From the NCBI GenBank assembly GCA_018262505.1, contig JAGSYV010000059.1:1-49906 (forward strand): a stretch of 49,906 nucleotides of DNA. Reading direction: 5' to 3'. Source of the DNA: Pseudomonadota bacterium (GTDB lineage: Bacteria > Pseudomonadota > Alphaproteobacteria > Rhizobiales > Pleomorphomonadaceae). This document shows positions 4,680-12,534 of this stretch, piece by piece. The notes below the pieces were generated by a model. It saw nothing but the letters and a program-made list of their open reading frames with translations. It did not search any database and had not been told where the DNA came from. How positions within the stretch are numbered: position 1 is the first letter of the stretch; every line of letters begins with the position of its first letter. A program made the position numbers and the translations under genes.

Positions 4680-4940
4680 TCAGGCTTTTTTCGCCGCCCG
4701 CAACACGGCGGCGATCACCGCCGCCACCGCCTTATAAAGGTCGACCGGAATCGTCTCGTCGAGCTTCAGCGTCGATAGCGCGTCGGCGAGGGCCGGATTT
4801 TCCTCGACCGGCACACCGGCTTCCCGGGCTTTCTCGACGATCGCCTCGGCGATGGCGCCTTTGCCCGTTGCGACCACTTTCGGCGCCCCCGGCGCGGCAT
4901 ATTGCAGCGCCACAGCCTTGCGGATGTCCTTGTCGCTCAT
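4680..4940 (-). CDS. Orphan FlhB C-terminal-domain protein (EscU/YscU/HrcU-type export switch)
   Basis: An 86-residue protein equivalent to the cytoplasmic C-terminal domain of FlhB, the substrate-specificity switch of the flagellar type III exporter. The segment KAVALQYAAPGAPKVVATGK corresponds to the region just after the NPTH autocleavage site in FlhB, and GVPVEENPALADAL plus IPVDLYKAVAAVIA match the rest. There is no membrane part and no NPTH: the protein begins about where the self-cleaved fragment begins. Stand-alone relatives (FlhX of Helicobacter, YlqH of Bacillus) are known. Its ATG overlaps the stop of the FliK-like gene (ATGA), so the two are translationally coupled and probably act together in flagellar hook export. 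Confidence 0.85.
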   Translation of the reverse strand: MSDKDIRKAVALQYAAPGAPKVVATGKGAIAEAIVEKAREAGVPVEENPALADALSTLKLDETIPVDLYKAVAAVIAAVLRAAKKA

Positions 4941-7324
4941 AGCTGAAGATCCAGGCGGTGGCTGGGCGCAACAGCCGTCTCGTCGTGGCCTTCGGCCGGA
5001 TGCCCGCGATGCAGATCGACACCGGCCACGACCATGCCCTCCTGTTCGAGGCCCAGCACGATATTCTCGCGCTCCGCTTCCATCCGGACCAGGCCGTCGT
5101 CGCTCTCGCACCAGACACCGACCGCCACACGCCGTCCATCCATCAATCCTACACGCACGGCGACCGGCCCGAGGGGCGCGATATCGAAGGCGATATCCAC
5201 CTGAAAGACCCGACGCGGCGGTGCGCCGGGTTCGTTCGGGGCATGATCGTCGCGCTCGATGCGAAGCTGAGCCACCGATGTGCCGTTCGGCCCGACAATG
5301 GGGATTTCCAGCATCAACGCCTGCGTCGGCTGGGCGGCTTTCATGTCACGGTTCTCGGCGGTTGCCGCCTGATGCAGGAAGACGCGCGACAGGGAGCGCT
5401 CCGCTTCGCCGAGCGCGCGGCCAGCCAATGTTTCGGTCGATGTCGTCTCGCTCTCGTCGCCATCCGGAAGCAGAACGGCTGGCTGGCCGCGAACAGGACT
5501 ACTCTTGCGTGGCGGCGGTGGCCGTTCGATGCGGGGCGCTACGGTATCGCCGCTGGCACCGTCAAGACTGGCCATCACGTCGGCATTGCGGCCAAGCCAG
5601 GTGATCAGCTCACGACGCAGGACTTCCAACGCGCCTTTGAGATCGACACCAGCCATCAGAGGCATGGTCACGGTGGGCTGAGATATCTGCTGAGCGAGCG
5701 GCCGGGGGGGCGCCGCGGAGATTTCGCCGCCGGCGGGCGCTGCCGGACGGGATTGCGGCGCAGGCTCGGATTGAGACGGGGACGCACGCTGCCCCAGCAC
5801 AGGTACTGACGCGGGCTCAGACGAAAAGACCGACGCGGCGGAAGGTTGTCCGGCACCCGGCAGCGTTGGTGCATTCTGCGCGTGAGAGGGCGCCCCCGGA
5901 CCAGCCGGCACTCGTATCACGACCGGCTCAGGCGGGGCATTCGGCAGGTTCTCCACCGCGGAGGGCACGAAGGGAGCTCGGTCACCGGCGGCACGAGGAC
6001 TGACGATTTCGCCACCGGCCGGAGCAGCCGGCGAAGGTGACGCGGGACGACCGACATCACCGGACGATCCGGCAGGCGCCGGAGAAGATGGCGCCGGTGC
6101 GGTGGGCGTGAATGGTCGACCCGGCGTCCATGGCGCAAACGAGCGAGACGCCGCGGATGCCTGGGCGGTTGGAACCGTCAGTGAAGGCCGGGTTGATACC
6201 CGCGCGTCTGACGGATCGGCGGTTGGTAGCGCGGCCGACGCTGGTGAGGGAGGCGCAGGGTTTGAAGCCGGGACCAGCGGCTCTGCGTGTTGGCCGACAG
6301 CCGTCGGCGTTGCCGGCACCCCTTGAAAAACAGGAGACGGCAATGGGGCCGGCTCAGCTCCCTGGTTGATCGACGGGGCCGGTTGGGCTTGCTGACCTCC
6401 AGAGACCGTCTGAATTTGTGCCGCCGCTGCCCCTTGGGGCACATTTCCAACTGCGGGCGGCAACGGGGCTTCAGAGGCGATCGCTGTCGTAGCGATCATC
6501 GGTGGCGCCTCTCCAGCCGCCGAGGTCGGCACAGGCACCGTGGCAACGCTCGTCGGCGGGAGAGCCGTGCTCGTTGACTGTGGCGCGGCGAGAGTTGCCG
6601 GCGGTGCGACGGGGCCGGCTGCCGAAGCGATCCCAACTGATGTATTTGGCGTAATGGTCGGACCGGGCGCATTGTCGCTACGCGGTGGAACGACGGGCGC
6701 GGTCGTGATGGGCGGCGAGCCCCCCTGCCGTCCGTAGGCTTGCGCAGCGGCGGATGCAGGCGTCGGGGCAGTTGGTGGCGGTGAGGCGTTGGCTGGCAGG
6801 GCTGAAACCTGGGTTGCGGTTGCGGTCGGCATCATGGGCGTGGAAGGCAATGTCACAGGACGTGCCGCTGCCTGCCCGTCTGCCGTCGCCACGTCACCAA
6901 GCGCCTGCCGGACGGCCGGCGGCAACGCCGCGGCCATTTTGCCGGCGGCCACCGCCTCATGGAATACGCCCGATGAGCGGATTGCCTCGGCCACCCGCGC
7001 TGGCGTCACGTTGTCCTCATCGAGGCGGAAGGCCAGTATGGTATCGACCGCCGCCTTCACCGCATCGGGCAGATCCGGTGCATCGGCAAGTTCAGCCAGC
7101 GTGGCGTAAAGCGGCGCCAACCCGCCCTGATGGCCCAGCGCTTCGGCAACCGCCTTTTCAAGCAATGTGGTTTCGGGGAGGATGGCGATTGCCGGTTCGC
7201 TGATCGCCGCCGCCTGAAGATCCAGAAGCGAACTGGCTGCCGTTTGTTGGGCGAGCGTCTTTCCCGGCTGACCGGAGTTTGCCTGTATTTCACTGATCAC
7301 CGGCGGCAGCGGGCCGATCGCCAT
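4937..7324 (-). CDS. FliK-like flagellar hook-length control protein
   Basis: About 795 residues. The N-terminal 140 residues are helical (LLEKAVAEALGHQGGLAPLY). A long linker rich in Pro, Ala, Ser and Thr (about 150-580) behaves as a flexible ruler, as in FliK. The last 130 residues form a Flg_hook-like domain (LEIPIVGPNGTSVAQLRIER, then FDIAPLGPVAVRVGLMDGRR). FliK is exported through the flagellar apparatus and triggers FlhB to switch from hook to filament substrates. The start at 7324 has GGGAG seven bases upstream; the frame is open further but the extra N-terminus is arginine-rich and unlikely. It is coupled to the FlhB-C gene. No other flagellar structural gene lies in the window. GC-rich repetitive linker sequence may vary in length. 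Confidence 0.85.
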   Translation of the reverse strand: MAIGPLPPVISEIQANSGQPGKTLAQQTAASSLLDLQAAAISEPAIAILPETTLLEKAVAEALGHQGGLAPLYATLAELADAPDLPDAVKAAVDTILAFRLDEDNVTPARVAEAIRSSGVFHEAVAAGKMAAALPPAVRQALGDVATADGQAAARPVTLPSTPMMPTATATQVSALPANASPPPTAPTPASAAAQAYGRQGGSPPITTAPVVPPRSDNAPGPTITPNTSVGIASAAGPVAPPATLAAPQSTSTALPPTSVATVPVPTSAAGEAPPMIATTAIASEAPLPPAVGNVPQGAAAAQIQTVSGGQQAQPAPSINQGAEPAPLPSPVFQGVPATPTAVGQHAEPLVPASNPAPPSPASAALPTADPSDARVSTRPSLTVPTAQASAASRSFAPWTPGRPFTPTAPAPSSPAPAGSSGDVGRPASPSPAAPAGGEIVSPRAAGDRAPFVPSAVENLPNAPPEPVVIRVPAGPGAPSHAQNAPTLPGAGQPSAASVFSSEPASVPVLGQRASPSQSEPAPQSRPAAPAGGEISAAPPRPLAQQISQPTVTMPLMAGVDLKGALEVLRRELITWLGRNADVMASLDGASGDTVAPRIERPPPPRKSSPVRGQPAVLLPDGDESETTSTETLAGRALGEAERSLSRVFLHQAATAENRDMKAAQPTQALMLEIPIVGPNGTSVAQLRIERDDHAPNEPGAPPRRVFQVDIAFDIAPLGPVAVRVGLMDGRRVAVGVWCESDDGLVRMEAERENIVLGLEQEGMVVAGVDLHRGHPAEGHDETAVAPSHRLDLQL

Positions 7325-7404
7325 GGGCATGCTCCCGGAGAAGGGGTCCCGGAAGGGTGCTTCGAAACGGCCCGTCTGGCAAGCCGTCACATTGGATCTA
7401 TCGC

Positions 7405-7443
7405 TCCGCCTCAGGCGGAACGGCGACCTCTTTGGCCGCCGTT
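7405..7443 (-). terminator. Tandem hairpins after the gcv operon
   Basis: Two adjacent stems lie between the gcvPB stop (7455) and the fliK-like start (7324): TCCGCC/GGCGGA (7405-7419, 3-nt loop) and AACGGCG/CGCCGTT (7419-7443, 11-nt loop). They may end or weaken gcv transcription before fliK. There is no clear U-tract on the minus strand, so this is a modest call. Confidence 0.4.
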
Positions 7444-7454
7444 TGCTCTTAAGG

Positions 7455-9008
7455 TCAGCCCTGATAAACGAGCTTCGGTTGGCGAGCGGCCAAAGTCTCG
7501 TCGACACGGCGGCGCGGCGCAAGATGCGGTGCTGCCTTGAAGGCCGCGACATCCCCCGCCCTGGCCTTTTCGGCAAGATGCCGCAGTGTGCCGATGAACT
7601 GGTCGAGGCTCGCCTTCGACTCCGACTCGGTTGGTTCGATCAACAGGGCGCCGTGGACGACCAGTGGGAAATACATGGTCATCGGATGGAATCCCTCGTC
7701 GATCATCGCCTTGGCGAAATCGAGCGTCGTGACGCCGGTTCCCTCCAGAAAATGGTCGTCGAACAGCACTTCGTGCATGGCCGGCCGCTCTGGGAAGGCA
7801 ACCGACATGACATCCTTGAGGCGCGCCTTGACATAGTTGGCGGCAAGCACCGCATCCTCAGACGCTTGCTTGAGACCGTCGGCGCCATGGCTCAGCATAT
7901 AGGCGAGCGCGCGCACGAACATGCCCATCTGACCATGGAAAGCGGTGATGCGGCCAAAGGGTTTCAGCTCTCGTTCACCGGCCGCCTTGCGCGTCTCGAC
8001 GAATTCGGCCGTGCCATCCTTGTCGAACCGCACGAAGGGGACAGGCGCATAAGGCGCAAGGCGATCGGAAAGCACCACCGGACCGGCGCCGGGACCACCG
8101 CCGCCATGCGGCGTCGAGAAGGTCTTGTGCAGGTTGATGTGCATGGCGTCGACGCCGAGATCACCCGGCCGGACCTTGCCGACGATGGCATTGAAGTTGG
8201 CGCCATCGGCGTAGAAATAGGCACCGGCGGCGTGCACCGCTTCGGCGATCTCGACGATGTCGCGCTCGAACAGGCCGCAGGTGTTGGGGTTGGTCAGCAT
8301 GATCGCCGCCACGTCGGGACCGAGGCGCTTCCTGACTTCCTCAGGATCGACCGTACCATCGGCACGCGCCGGCACGCCGACCACGCGGAACCCGAGTTGG
8401 GCAGCCGACGCCGGATTGGTGCCATGTGCAGATTCGGGCACCAGCACCACGTCGCGTGCCTCGCCTCGATCGACGATCGCCGCCTTGATCGTTGCCATGC
8501 CGCACATTTCGCCGTGCGCACCGGCCTTGGGGCTCATGGCGACCGAGGCCATGCCGGCGAGTTCCAGCAGCCAGCGGCCAAGCTCGGCAATCAATTCGAC
8601 GGCACCTGATACCGTCGACAATGGCTGCAGGGGATGCACGTCACCAAATCCCGGTAGCCGCGCCATCGCCTCGTTGAGACGCGGGTTATGCTTCATGGTG
8701 CAGGAGCCGAGCGGATAGAGGCCAAGGTCGATGGCGTAGTTCTGACGGCTGAGGCGAACGTAATGACGCATCGTCTCCGGCTCGGTGAGGCCCGGAAGAT
8801 CGACGGGCGCCGTACGACCGAGGCCGCCGAGGCGGGACTCGAAGGCGTCGACGTCATCGAAGTCGACGCCGGAAGCATCCGGACGACCGACTTCGAACAG
8901 CAGCGGCTCCTCGATGGCGAGCCCTTGATTGCCGGTAAAGGTGGATGCGGCAGCAGCCGCGCCGGGGATGACGGGCGCGGTCGGGCGGCCCACGTTATTC
9001 ATGGTCAT
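7455..9008 (-). CDS. gcvPB: Glycine dehydrogenase (decarboxylating) subunit 2
   Basis: The PLP-bearing half of the two-subunit P-protein, which decarboxylates glycine and passes the aminomethyl group to lipoyl GcvH. The 517-residue product has the PLP lysine K295 in INLHKTFSTPHGGGGPGAG, the SCTMKHNPRLNE motif and SAHGTNPASAA. A strong Shine-Dalgarno GGAGGTGAT lies just upstream of the ATG, and these bases are the last codons of a 52-residue ORF whose TGA overlaps this ATG. Last gene of gcvT-gcvH-gcvPA-ORF-gcvPB. Expression should follow the glycine riboswitch upstream of gcvT. Confidence 0.96.
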   Translation of the reverse strand: MTMNNVGRPTAPVIPGAAAAASTFTGNQGLAIEEPLLFEVGRPDASGVDFDDVDAFESRLGGLGRTAPVDLPGLTEPETMRHYVRLSRQNYAIDLGLYPLGSCTMKHNPRLNEAMARLPGFGDVHPLQPLSTVSGAVELIAELGRWLLELAGMASVAMSPKAGAHGEMCGMATIKAAIVDRGEARDVVLVPESAHGTNPASAAQLGFRVVGVPARADGTVDPEEVRKRLGPDVAAIMLTNPNTCGLFERDIVEIAEAVHAAGAYFYADGANFNAIVGKVRPGDLGVDAMHINLHKTFSTPHGGGGPGAGPVVLSDRLAPYAPVPFVRFDKDGTAEFVETRKAAGERELKPFGRITAFHGQMGMFVRALAYMLSHGADGLKQASEDAVLAANYVKARLKDVMSVAFPERPAMHEVLFDDHFLEGTGVTTLDFAKAMIDEGFHPMTMYFPLVVHGALLIEPTESESKASLDQFIGTLRHLAEKARAGDVAAFKAAPHLAPRRRVDETLAARQPKLVYQG

Positions 9009-9163
9009 TGATCACCTCCAAAGGTGAACAGCGTCGAAAGCAGGAAGCTGCGGTAGCGGCTCGGCGTTTTCACCGGACTGTCGCTGAAGAAGCGGCGCTG
9101 AGAGGCCGGGGAGCTGTCCTTGCCCCACGGCTCGCCGCCCTCTGTCGGTCGTCTGTCGGTCAT
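9005..9163 (-). CDS. 52-residue ORF coupled between gcvPA and gcvPB
   Basis: A previously easy-to-miss small ORF fills the whole gap between the two P-protein genes. Its ATG overlaps the gcvPA TGA (ATGA, 9160-9163), and its TGA overlaps the gcvPB ATG (9005-9008), so both ends have the 4-bp overlap used for translational coupling across this genome. The peptide starts [18 protein letters not shown], has an Arg/Ser-rich middle, and ends with a hydrophobic-aromatic stretch, [15 protein letters not shown] recognise no family. It may be a true small protein, or its main role may be to carry ribosomes to gcvPB and keep the two subunits in balance. No transmembrane helix is long enough to be sure of. 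Confidence 0.6.
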
Positions 9164-10506
9164 GCCAGCGCCTCCTTGAGAGCAGCCGTCAACGCGGCCC
9201 TGTCATCGTCGGTGTTAACCTCGGTGGCAGCGACGACCAGCACGTTTTCGAGTTCCGGTCGGTTCGGCTCCAACCGGCTTGCCGGTACGCCGGCAAGAAT
9301 GCCGCGGGCAGCCAACGTTTCGACAAGAACGGAGGCATTTTTCGGCAGACGCAGGGCGAACTCGTTGAAGAAGGTGCGGTTGAGCAGCTCGACGCCAGGC
9401 AACGCGGCCAGCGCATCGGCGAGCTTCACCGCGTTGGCGTGATTGAGGCGGGCAAGCTTCGTCAATCCCGCGCCGCCCAGCAGCGTCAGGTGGATGGAGA
9501 AGGCCAGCGAGCAAAGGCCGGCGTTGGTGCAGATGTTGGATGTGGCCTTCTCGCGGCGAATGTGCTGTTCGCGCGTCGACAGCGTCAGCACGAAGGAACG
9601 CCGGCCGTCGGCATCCACCGTCTCGCCGCAGAGACGACCGGGCATCTGGCGAACGTATTTCTGGCGCGTCGCAAAGAGGCCGACATAGGGACCGCCGAAA
9701 CTGAGCGGGTTCCCGAGCGATTGCCCCTCGCCAACGACGATGTCGGCGCCCTGCGCGCCCGGCGGCTCGATCAGGCCGAGCGACACCACCTCGGTGAAGA
9801 CGGCGATCAACAGCGCGCCGACGGCATGCGCCTTTTCAGCGACTGGCCTGAGATCGTAGAGATGACCGTAGAAGGAGGGCGACTGCACGACCACGCAGGA
9901 AGTCGTCTCATCGATGGCGGCGAGGATATCCTCGGTGCCCGAGAGGTCCGGCGGCAGACTCTCCACCGTATGGCCTGGGAAACGCGTCACCGTCTCGACG
10001 ACACCGCGATAGTGCGGGTGGACGCCGCCCGACAGCACTGCCTTGTCACGCTTGGTGACGCGGTGGGCCATCAGCACCGCCTCGGCCAGCCCCGTCGAGC
10101 CGTCATACATCGAGGCGTTGGCGACCTCCATGCCGGTGAGGCGGGCGACCTGGGTCTGGAACTCGAACAGGACCTGCAACGTGCCCTGGGCAATTTCCGG
10201 CTGATAGGGCGTGTAGCTCGTCAGGAATTCCGAGCGCTGGATCAGGTGATCGACGGTGGCTGGAACGTGATGCCGATAGGCGCCGGCACCGATGAAGAAA
10301 GGCACTGAGCCAGCTGGCGTGTTCTTCGCCGCCATCGTTCCAAGGCGGCGGGCGACAGCCTGCTCGCTGGCGTGCGGCGGTAGCTTCGGCAGCATGGCGA
10401 GGCGTTTCTCCGCCGGCAGATCAGCGAAGAGATCGTCGATCGAAGCAACACCGATGGCCGAAAGCATGTCGGCCCGATCAGTATCGGAAAGAGGAAGATA
10501 GCGCAT
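9160..10506 (-). CDS. gcvPA: Glycine dehydrogenase (decarboxylating) subunit 1
   Basis: The non-PLP-lysine half of the split P-protein (448 residues), partner of GcvPB. The family signature is clear: [19 protein letters not shown] at the start, [38 protein letters not shown] and [16 protein letters not shown], with [20 protein letters not shown] near residue 320. It overlaps the following 52-residue ORF by 4 bp. Between it and gcvH is a 172-bp spacer in which I see no gene. Bacteria with a single fused gcvP differ from this split form. Confidence 0.96.
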
Positions 10507-10678: not shown

Positions 10679-11050
10679 TTAAAGTCCTTCGACGAAGGTC
10701 TTGTAGGCGGCCTCGTCCATCAGAACTTCGAGTTCGGCAGGATCCGACATTTCGATCCGGCAGAACCAGCCGGCACCCTCCGGGTCCTCGTTGACGGTGA
10801 TCGGATTGTCGGCGAGCGGTCCATTCGCCTCGACGACCGTTCCGGTGACCGGCGAATAGACTTCGCTCGCCGCTTTGACGCTCTCGACGACTGCCGTCTC
10901 TTCGCCCTTTTTCACCTTGCGACCGATGACCGGCACCTCGACGAACACCACGTCGCCGAGCTGGGCCTGCGCATAGTCGGTAATGCCGAGGGTGGCGATG
11001 TTGCCGGCCACGGCGATCCACTCGTGCTCTTCGGTGTAATACTTGGTCAT
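10679..11050 (-). CDS. gcvH: Glycine cleavage system H protein
   Basis: The lipoylated carrier of the glycine cleavage system (123 residues, normal length). K59 in VVESVKAASEVYSPVTG is the lipoylation site, with the conserved ExVK context. It starts MTKYYTEEHEWI, as is typical, and ends ...AAYKTFVEGL. It shuttles the aminomethyl intermediate among P, T and L proteins in the cytoplasm. It lies 27 bp after gcvT in the riboswitch-led operon. Confidence 0.96.
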   Translation of the reverse strand: MTKYYTEEHEWIAVAGNIATLGITDYAQAQLGDVVFVEVPVIGRKVKKGEETAVVESVKAASEVYSPVTGTVVEANGPLADNPITVNEDPEGAGWFCRIEMSDPAELEVLMDEAAYKTFVEGL

Positions 11051-11077: not shown

Positions 11078-12238
11078 TTACTTGGGCGCGCGATAAAACC
11101 GCGCCGGAACGAAGGGAAGAGAGACGATTTCGGCCGGCAGCGCCTTGCCGCGCACGACCAACCCCACCCGCGTGCCCGGCCGGGCGTGAACCGCGGCGAC
11201 GTAGCCCATTGCTACCGGGCCGCCAACGGTTGGGCCGAAGCCGCCGGAGGTGACGACACCAATGGCGACGCCGTTCTCGTCGACGATCTCGGCACCGTCG
11301 CGGGCGGGTGCGCGCCCATCCGGTCGAATGCCGACACGTTTGCGGGCGACGCCCTCGGCGATCTGCGACAGAACGATATCGGCGCCGGGGAAGCCGCCTT
11401 CTTCGCGGCGGCGTTTCTGGATCGACCAGAGGAGACCAGCTTCGACCGGCGTCGTCGTCTCATCGATGTCATGACCGTAAAGGCAGAGCCCGCCTTCAAG
11501 GCGCAGCGAGTCGCGAGCGCCAAGGCCAATTGGTCGGACGCGGGGATCGCGTAGCAGGATTTCCCAAAGGCCCACCACCGTATCGGCGTGAACCGAAATC
11601 TCAAAACCGTCCTCACCGGTATAGCCGGAACGGGACAGAAAGACTGGAATACCGGCGATGCTCGCCGAGCCGACAGCCATGAAATCCCAACCGGCAACAT
11701 CGGCGCCGAGAGAGACCAGCACGTTGACCGCTTCGGGACCCTGCAAGGCGAGCAGTGCCCGCTCTTCGTGGATTTCGAGCAGCACATTCTCAGGCAGCCG
11801 AGCTGCAATATGGGCGTAGTCCGCGACCTTGCAGGCGGCGTTGACGACCAGACCGAGCGTACCGTCGGCGCCGAGAGCGCGATGCACCATCAGGTCATCG
11901 AGGATACCGCCGCGCTCGTTGAGAAGCTGGGAATAGCGCTGCCGGCCCGGCTCGAGGCCGAGGATGTCAGCCGGTATCAAGGATTCGAGGGCACGGGCTA
12001 CCGTCTGATGGTCAGGTCCGCGAAGCGTCGCCTGTCCCATATGCGACACGTCGAACAGGCCAGCCGCGGCGCGGCAATGGGCGTGTTCGGCGAGAATGCC
12101 TTCGTATTGCACCGGCATCAGATAGCCGGCGAACGGCACCATGCGGGCACCGAGCGCCACGTGGGCGTCATGGAGCGGTGTCTTGAGTGGCGCGACGGCG
12201 GAATGCGTGTCGTGGTCGGCATGGACGGGCGTCGTCAT
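11078..12238 (-). CDS. gcvT: Aminomethyltransferase (glycine cleavage T protein)
   Basis: Transfers the methylene group from aminomethyl-lipoyl GcvH to tetrahydrofolate, releasing ammonia. The 386-residue product shows LHDAHVALGARMVPFAGYLM, FDVSHMGQATLRGPD, the SRSGYTGEDGFEI motif of the folate-binding core, and IGLGARDSLRLEGGLCLYGH. GGAG lies nine bases before the ATG. It is the first gene of the operon, about 50 bp downstream of a tandem glycine riboswitch, so glycine should raise its expression along with gcvH, gcvPA and gcvPB. Confidence 0.95.
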   Translation of the reverse strand: MTTPVHADHDTHSAVAPLKTPLHDAHVALGARMVPFAGYLMPVQYEGILAEHAHCRAAAGLFDVSHMGQATLRGPDHQTVARALESLIPADILGLEPGRQRYSQLLNERGGILDDLMVHRALGADGTLGLVVNAACKVADYAHIAARLPENVLLEIHEERALLALQGPEAVNVLVSLGADVAGWDFMAVGSASIAGIPVFLSRSGYTGEDGFEISVHADTVVGLWEILLRDPRVRPIGLGARDSLRLEGGLCLYGHDIDETTTPVEAGLLWSIQKRRREEGGFPGADIVLSQIAEGVARKRVGIRPDGRAPARDGAEIVDENGVAIGVVTSGGFGPTVGGPVAMGYVAAVHARPGTRVGLVVRGKALPAEIVSLPFVPARFYRAPK

Positions 12239-12290: not shown

Positions 12291-12476
12291 CCCCTCTGTC
12301 ACGTAACCTGAGAGATTTCCCCGGACTCCCTGTCCAGGTTACTCCTTCGGTGAGTCGAAGCCTGGGCCTCGCCTGCTTTCCAGAGCGTCGTCCGCTGCGA
12401 GCGGTCCGTTTGCCTGAGAGTTTCCGGGGCGGTTGCTCCTTCGGCGCCGACGGTAACCACCGTCGATCTCTCCCGC
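12291..12476 (-). promoter_or_regulatory. Tandem glycine riboswitch upstream of gcvT
   Basis: Read on the minus strand, two aptamers follow each other. The first has GGGAGAGA, GCGCCGAAGGAGCAACC and ACTCTCAGGC. The second has CACCGAAGGAGTAACC and ATCTCTCAGG. The GxACCGAAGGnGnAA and CTCTCAGG elements are the signature of the glycine aptamer, and their doubling with a linker between is the classical cooperative form. It ends about 50 bases before gcvT. In known cases glycine binding turns on gcv expression. I see no clear terminator between aptamer 2 and the gene, so control may act on translation or on a fold I cannot resolve by eye. Confidence 0.93.
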
Positions 12477-12534
12477 GCAGCGTCTCGGGGCCTTGCGGCT
12501 CCACGTCCGGGCACGACTATCCCGAACAACCGCC

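Follow-up and report, generated by a model that had tools for sequence, protein, structure and literature searches.

A 52-codon open reading frame (ORF) lies between gcvPA and gcvPB, the genes for glycine dehydrogenase subunits 1 and 2, in a 49,906-nucleotide stretch of Pleomorphomonas DNA (contig JAGSYV010000059.1 of assembly GCA_018262505.1; hereafter the window), and overlaps each of them by four nucleotides. Sequence comparison suggests that this small ORF is on balance a genuine gene, specific to its lineage and very probably translated, and that it serves as a translational relay from gcvPA to gcvPB. The invariant C-terminal segment of its product may have a function of its own, which is less certain, and would more likely exert it in cis during translation than as a free protein; action in cis is preferred because codons as well as residues are conserved and the distance to the gcvPB start is fixed.

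Results

The small ORF and its conservation in the genus

The small ORF occupies positions 9005..9163 of the window on the minus strand, the strand of every feature given below, and runs from an ATG to a TGA. Its start shares an ATGA (9160..9163) with the stop of gcvPA (9160..10506; PF02347, E 7.8e-118), and its stop shares a second ATGA (9005..9008) with the start of gcvPB (7455..9008; PF21478, E 2.8e-21). A Shine-Dalgarno-like AAGGAGG for the small ORF lies within the last gcvPA codons (9171..9177), and the Shine-Dalgarno sequence of gcvPB, GGAGGTGATC, within the last codons of the small ORF (9010..9019). The initial annotation, made from the window alone, had described this frame, its coordinates, both overlaps and the placement of the gcvPB Shine-Dalgarno sequence, all of which proved correct; it had named no strand.

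Of 14 Pleomorphomonas genomes, this one counted, 12 have an orthologue at this position; Pleomorphomonas diazotrophica and P. carboxyditropha belong to the genus, and records L031 and L033 carry the same small ORFs as G002 and G003. All 12 orthologues have their ATG on the gcvPA stop and their TGA on the gcvPB start, so that the four-nucleotide stop/start overlap of an ATGA-coupled gene is retained with both neighbours throughout. Ten are 52 codons long and the other two 49 and 45, and these differences consist of whole codons in the N-terminal half. A chance origin of the two overlaps, doubted from the outset, is very unlikely because they are conserved in 12 of the 14 genomes.

The ratio of nonsynonymous to synonymous substitution rates (dN/dS), for which the initial annotation had set a value below 1 as the check, was 0.40 over codons 2-52 (Nei-Gojobori; bootstrap confidence interval over codons 0.26-0.57). 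It was 0.44 (0.31-0.59) over codons 2-32, 0.52 (0.34-0.73) over codons 2-22 and 0.28 (0.14-0.46) over codons 23-32. The remaining two forward frames gave 1.18 and 1.24 and the reverse frames 1.31, 1.18 and 0.44; the reverse frame with the low value has its wobble positions in common with the real frame and is interrupted by one to three stops in every sequence. The codon-for-codon antisense frame, with a dN/dS of 1.31, is open in all 12 sequences. Purifying selection was thus specific to the frame of the small ORF, and at the level of sequence the conserved frame, the low dN/dS and the whole-codon indels argue for the real small protein that had been proposed.

The C-terminal segment and a candidate hairpin

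In the alignment of the genus sequences, residues 33-47 (codons at 9023..9067), a run of 15 near the C-terminus, are identical in all 12. The proportion of synonymous differences (pS) over these codons was 0.174, lower than in any of the 921 15-codon windows taken from gcvPA and gcvPB in the same genomes (mean 0.429; the gcvPB of one genome, cut by a contig end, was excluded). For shorter stretches, windows equally low numbered 11 of 931 (codons 35-44), 5 of 927 (codons 36-47) and 2 of 939 (codons 42-47). Low synonymous change combined with invariant residues makes it seem that selection acts on both RNA and peptide at codons 33-47.

A hairpin over the gcvPB Shine-Dalgarno sequence is plausible. 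Folding predicts UCACCU-UUGG-AGGUGA at codons 46-51 (9012..9027), with weak statistical support, and the form in the genus is UCACCU-UYGG-AGGUGA, whose six pairs can all form in 11 of 12 sequences, while a synonymous change breaks one pair in L007. The hairpin follows largely from the peptide sequence and codon bias. A conserved RNA structure across the whole ORF was considered and is unsupported (two-sided change in 1 of 44 pairs; covariation term -0.18). The AlphaFold2 model of the peptide was too poor to be used in a structure search, with a mean predicted local distance difference test score (pLDDT) of 62 and a predicted template modelling score (pTM) of 0.30, and contained one helix at residues 35-48. 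An amphipathic membrane helix was rejected, its moment of 0.21 being too low.

Relatives and origin of the small ORF

The peptide had no match in Pfam or NCBIfam at E ≤ 1 and none among PDB sequences at E ≤ 10, and its one match in PHROGs (E 0.29; 3 of 12 members) was taken as noise; for these four collections, the earlier remark that it belongs to no named family holds. Searching 397 genomes sampled from the order with a profile of the 12 sequences gave 12 strong matches, all in the genus (E 2.7e-22 or better, for one genome). Outside the genus, no convincing relative was found in the 397 genomes, the best match (6.5e-4) having two internal TGA codons. Weak matches at E ≤ 1 occurred in 235 of the 397 genomes in total, and 12 weak-match loci (about 3 kb each), when inspected, showed no gcvPA match and gcvPB only at E 0.28 or worse. 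The alignment across related Hyphomicrobiales that had been suggested as a check therefore bears out a conserved frame within the genus and not beyond it. No second copy or donor was found in the 14 genus genomes, in which each carrier has one strong match. In the literature collection searched, no paper joined Pleomorphomonas with glycine cleavage, and the titles and abstract openings of papers retrieved on gcvPA, gcvPB and small proteins named no such ORF.

In a tree of gcvPA plus gcvPB with 22 sequences, the 12 carriers were separated from all others with a support of 100, and the genus members G007 and G008 fell outside the carrier group. These sequences indicate that the small ORF was gained once, within Pleomorphomonas. 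The junction of G008 is a direct ATGA overlap, that of G007 holds a 388-nt insert without a bridging ORF, and relatives such as L113 and L118 read GGAGGTGCTGGCATGACCATG there. Among the carriers, ATGACC stands at the start of the small ORF in 11 of 12 and at the start of gcvPB in 9 of 12. Because of ATGACC at both starts and the direct overlap in relatives, the small ORF appears to sit on the former start site of gcvPB, which would now have a new one.

The G007 insert (locus L112) ends in TTCACCCCGGAGGTGA right before gcvPB and, judged by eye, may form a Shine-Dalgarno hairpin resembling that of the small ORF. Kinship of the small ORF with the tail of this insert (TTCACC..GGAGGTGA before the start) was considered and not adopted; the likeness is suggestive only, as 1 to 10 of 200 shuffles scored equally high for four carriers.

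The gcvPA/gcvPB junction in other lineages

Junctions were gathered from a scan of related loci, covering the best 80 of 586 relatives, and from the 199 genomes of the order with gcvPB, in which 117 junctions were taken by position, from among the genomes listed, besides those obtained as loci (G314, at a contig start, was excluded). The window's own locus L001 and the weak-match loci L013-L030, and L121-L156 (which include G015, the other copy from G008 and loci represented elsewhere in the set), were set aside before the count. A total of 230 loci were examined and 211 distinct junctions kept, after 15 duplicates, three loci without an upstream gcvPA and one without a gcvPB match had been dropped; a looser duplicate test left no duplicates among the 211. 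In G015, which is outside this count, gcvPB is in pieces and a 200-nt insert lacks bridging.

A direct -4 overlap of gcvPA and gcvPB was the commonest arrangement (101 of 211 junctions), with a one-base overlap in 18 more. Inserts longer than 30 nt were present at 39 junctions, 11 of them carriers of the small ORF and 28 others. An insert was scored as bridged if it held an ORF that began on the gcvPA stop with an offset of exactly -4 (ATGA, GTGA or TTGA) and whose end fell in the range from 16 nt upstream of the first gcvPB start base to 7 nt beyond it. By this definition 21 of the 28 were bridged, compared to 8.15 expected from shuffles that preserve dinucleotides. For inserts of at least 100 nt the figures were 15 of 21 against 3.73, or 9 of 21 against 3.41 with a stricter end at +1 to +7. 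Among the inserts longer than 30 nt, once related copies had been collapsed, 18 of 25 were bridged, with 6.4 expected. Overall, the gcvPA/gcvPB junction retains different in-phase open frames above chance. Together with the two overlaps in all 12 carriers, this pattern is consistent with the coupling element that the initial annotation had offered as one of its readings.

Eight bridging ORFs are of gene size, and only these among the 21 were scanned against Pfam; one matched DinB, one DUF2513, and six had no match at E ≤ 0.01. The other bridging ORFs are short or repeat-like. At L265 (G256), a 177-codon gene of the DinB family stands between gcvPA and gcvPB with ATGA overlaps at both ends. The insert at L114 (G014) belongs to a palindromic repeat, for which 82 matches were counted in that genome, including both strands and the insert itself. 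It holds a 66-codon ORF, likewise with ATGA overlaps at both ends; the repeat had no match at E ≤ 1e-6 in G007, G015, G016 or the genome studied here.

As controls, other joints of the operon were scored, each in 70 of 77 loci. With gaps of at least 100 nt, gcvH-gcvPA was bridged in 1 of 30 cases and gcvT-gcvH in 3 of 5, and bridging differed between gcvPA-gcvPB and gcvH-gcvPA with a Fisher P of 2e-7. At L040, L044 and L066, ORFs with 4-nt overlaps at both ends bridge the gcvT/gcvH gaps, which measure 106, 139 and 259 nt.

Operon context in the window

The operon reads, on the minus strand, glycine riboswitch, gcvT, gcvH, gcvPA, small ORF, gcvPB. The riboswitch aptamer lies upstream of gcvT (12392..12485; RF00504, 64 bits, gathering threshold 32) and is followed by gcvT (11078..12238; PF01571 and PF08669) and gcvH (10679..11050; PF01597). 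A FliK-like gene (4937-7576) adjoins the operon, with a weak Flg_hook match under the Pfam cut-off (E 0.00073), and shares an ATGA with a gene resembling the FlhB C-terminal part (4680-4940; PF01312, E 2.5e-17). The statement that this genome uses the same overlap at several other joints held at this joint (4937-4940), the one that was examined, and our verdict is limited to it.

Discussion

We propose that DNA inserted at the start codon of gcvPB handed the old start site, comprising the ribosome-binding sequence within gcvPA and the ATGA, to a new frame, and that gcvPB gained a new Shine-Dalgarno sequence and ATGA start at the far end of the insert. Ribosomes finishing gcvPA would then begin the small ORF on the first overlap and, on finishing it, would open the hairpin over the gcvPB Shine-Dalgarno sequence and begin gcvPB on the second, so that synthesis of GcvPA and GcvPB could be kept in step. 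This relay is favoured because distance-sensitive reinitiation and ribosome delivery by short ORFs are both reported (PMC10666635, PMC12548453). In the first, reinitiation on native gene pairs needs overlaps or very short distances, with about 20 nt nearly abolishing it, and heteromeric complexes show an enrichment of short overlaps among their subunits (PMC10666635); in the second, a review, a short ORF is said to be able to deliver a ribosome to the next gene (PMC12548453).

A number of observations weigh against this proposal. Seven of the 28 inserts are unbridged, that of the congener G007 among them, and a relay is dispensable for that reason. The bridged inserts carry less than their number suggests: for 11 of the 21 the shuffle probability was between 0.15 and 0.93, exceeding 0.6 in nine, and these count for little singly, since at the given insert length an open in-phase frame is unsurprising there, and 8 of the other 10 hold ORFs of at least 100 codons resembling ordinary genes. 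Within operons, 4-nt overlaps between genes are frequent for ordinary reasons. Exact 4-nt overlaps at both ends occurred in 7 of 28 (with gcvPB starts chosen by script), and the P of 6e-18 for 21 of 28 ignores kinship among inserts and is too small, because L275/L283/L284 and L038/L195 look related by descent. When related copies and the eight ORFs of at least 100 codons were left out, 10 of 17 inserts were bridged against an expected 6.2 (P 9e-4). This excess is much smaller and weakens the wider pattern. The gcvH-gcvPA joint is an unequal control, because its gaps longer than 30 nt rarely follow an NTGA stop able to start an ORF (5 of 37), and gcvT-gcvH, which is no subunit pair, was also bridged, so that bridging is not limited to subunit pairs. 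As to the hairpin, 6 of 12 sequences were folded singly and were no more stable than their shuffles (z-scores near 0), and one orthologue has a broken pair. Opening the gcvPB Shine-Dalgarno sequence took 6.8 kcal/mol in the carriers and 5.6 kcal/mol elsewhere (12 and 76 junctions, p 0.011), and its mean unpaired probability was 0.47 in both groups; this comparison used 88 of 105 junctions, excluding script-named loci, alignments that began after residue 3 and stretches of insufficient length.

Among other explanations, that of a frame open by chance in GC-rich spacer DNA is highly improbable. Short open frames are common in such DNA, and even the antisense frame is open in all 12 sequences, but that frame shows no purifying selection, indels are confined to whole codons and both overlaps are kept in every carrier; conservation thus largely refutes this explanation. 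A pure coupling spacer, in which the ORF merely passes ribosomes on and the peptide is irrelevant, is rather unlikely. It would agree with the different ORFs found at this place in other lineages, at least one of them from a genomic repeat, and short ORFs serving solely for ribosome delivery have been proposed (PMC12548453). However, a dN/dS well under 1 and 15 invariant residues speak against it, and because it is under selection the peptide probably does more than hand on ribosomes.

The main rival to the relay is a free small protein, a reading akin to the partner of the split P-protein that the initial annotation had suggested and one we regard as possible though not likely. The released peptide would bind the GcvPA/GcvPB complex, or some other partner, through its C-terminal helix and aid assembly or activity, with coupling setting the dose. 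Selection on amino acids along the whole ORF, the invariant segment, the predicted helix and the position between two subunit genes would all suit such a protein. The structural model is poor, however, the helix is not clearly amphipathic, and the ORF is confined to one clade while split gcvPA/gcvPB genes are common in the order; a free protein also leaves the low synonymous change of the C-terminal codons unexplained. More doubtful than either the spacer or the free protein is an arrest (leader) peptide, a special form of action in cis in which the C-terminus would stall the ribosome under some condition and thereby open or close gcvPB translation. A conserved C-terminal part behind an N-terminal half that varies in sequence and length, a fixed place directly before the gcvPB start and a Shine-Dalgarno sequence in a possible hairpin are what such a peptide might show, but a RAPP-like motif is absent from all 12 sequences (by eye), and internal arrest would be unusual in an operon already equipped with a glycine riboswitch. 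Relay, free protein and arrest are compatible with one another, and their probabilities overlap. Thus, what the initial annotation observed is confirmed, and its interpretation is supported in part.

A wider and more speculative reading, which we offer tentatively, is that unrelated DNA (repeats, junk and whole genes) has landed repeatedly at the gcvPA/gcvPB overlap and is kept mostly as a ribosome-relaying frame, and that in Pleomorphomonas one such frame turned into a new gene, the nascent C-terminus of which, being read beside the gcvPB start, tunes GcvPB synthesis; if true, a regulatory peptide would have been born from a coupling spacer. Should the translational relay be right, the birth of a gene could be placed on a tree, with 12 carriers, two congeners without the ORF and the usual older junction known, and a coupling spacer would have turned into a gene for a conserved peptide; an otherwise textbook enzyme operon would have a small extra component. 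It would also suggest a rule that insertions surviving at overlapping genes are those that stay open and in phase. A similar rule has been proposed for the mycobacterial interspersed repetitive units (MIRUs), and its appearance at one enzyme junction in several Alphaproteobacteria would widen the rule and open it to tests.

Comparison with known systems

Termination-reinitiation at ATGA overlaps, as described in PMC10666635, resembles the present case in its 4-nt overlaps, single strand and subunits of one complex; compared to such simple coupling, the small ORF, known here from its sequence, places two overlaps in series between the subunits. Small ORFs that affect a downstream gene of the same operon are also described for a Salmonella Mg2+ transporter (PMC8092293) and as a minigene of axe-txe (PMC8708949). 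The ORF studied here differs in overlapping both of its neighbours and in lying between two enzyme subunits. RAPP-like arrest peptides (PMC10987492, PMC12992588) are alike in being encoded by a short upstream ORF and have their active part in the C-terminal sequence, whereas the small ORF is without a RAPP-like motif in its 12 sequences and is flanked, within an operon, by genes for enzyme subunits.

The closest precedent comes from the mycobacterial MIRUs, with which the small ORF shares insertion at a start codon and an ORF at -4 to the next gene; it is counted as an insert because of the tree and the direct overlap in relatives. In the original work, MIRU ORFs reportedly overlap both neighbours at DTGA sites. 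According to a review, MIRUs insert at start codons with their ORF coupled at -4 (PMC12548453). Unlike a MIRU, the small ORF is not a repeat, being present once per carrier genome, and selection acts on its peptide; the G014 insert, repeated in its genome and with ATGA at both ends, comes closer to a MIRU in this respect. The small ORF is thus nearest to MIRU-type start-codon inserts, yet it is single-copy and encodes a conserved peptide.
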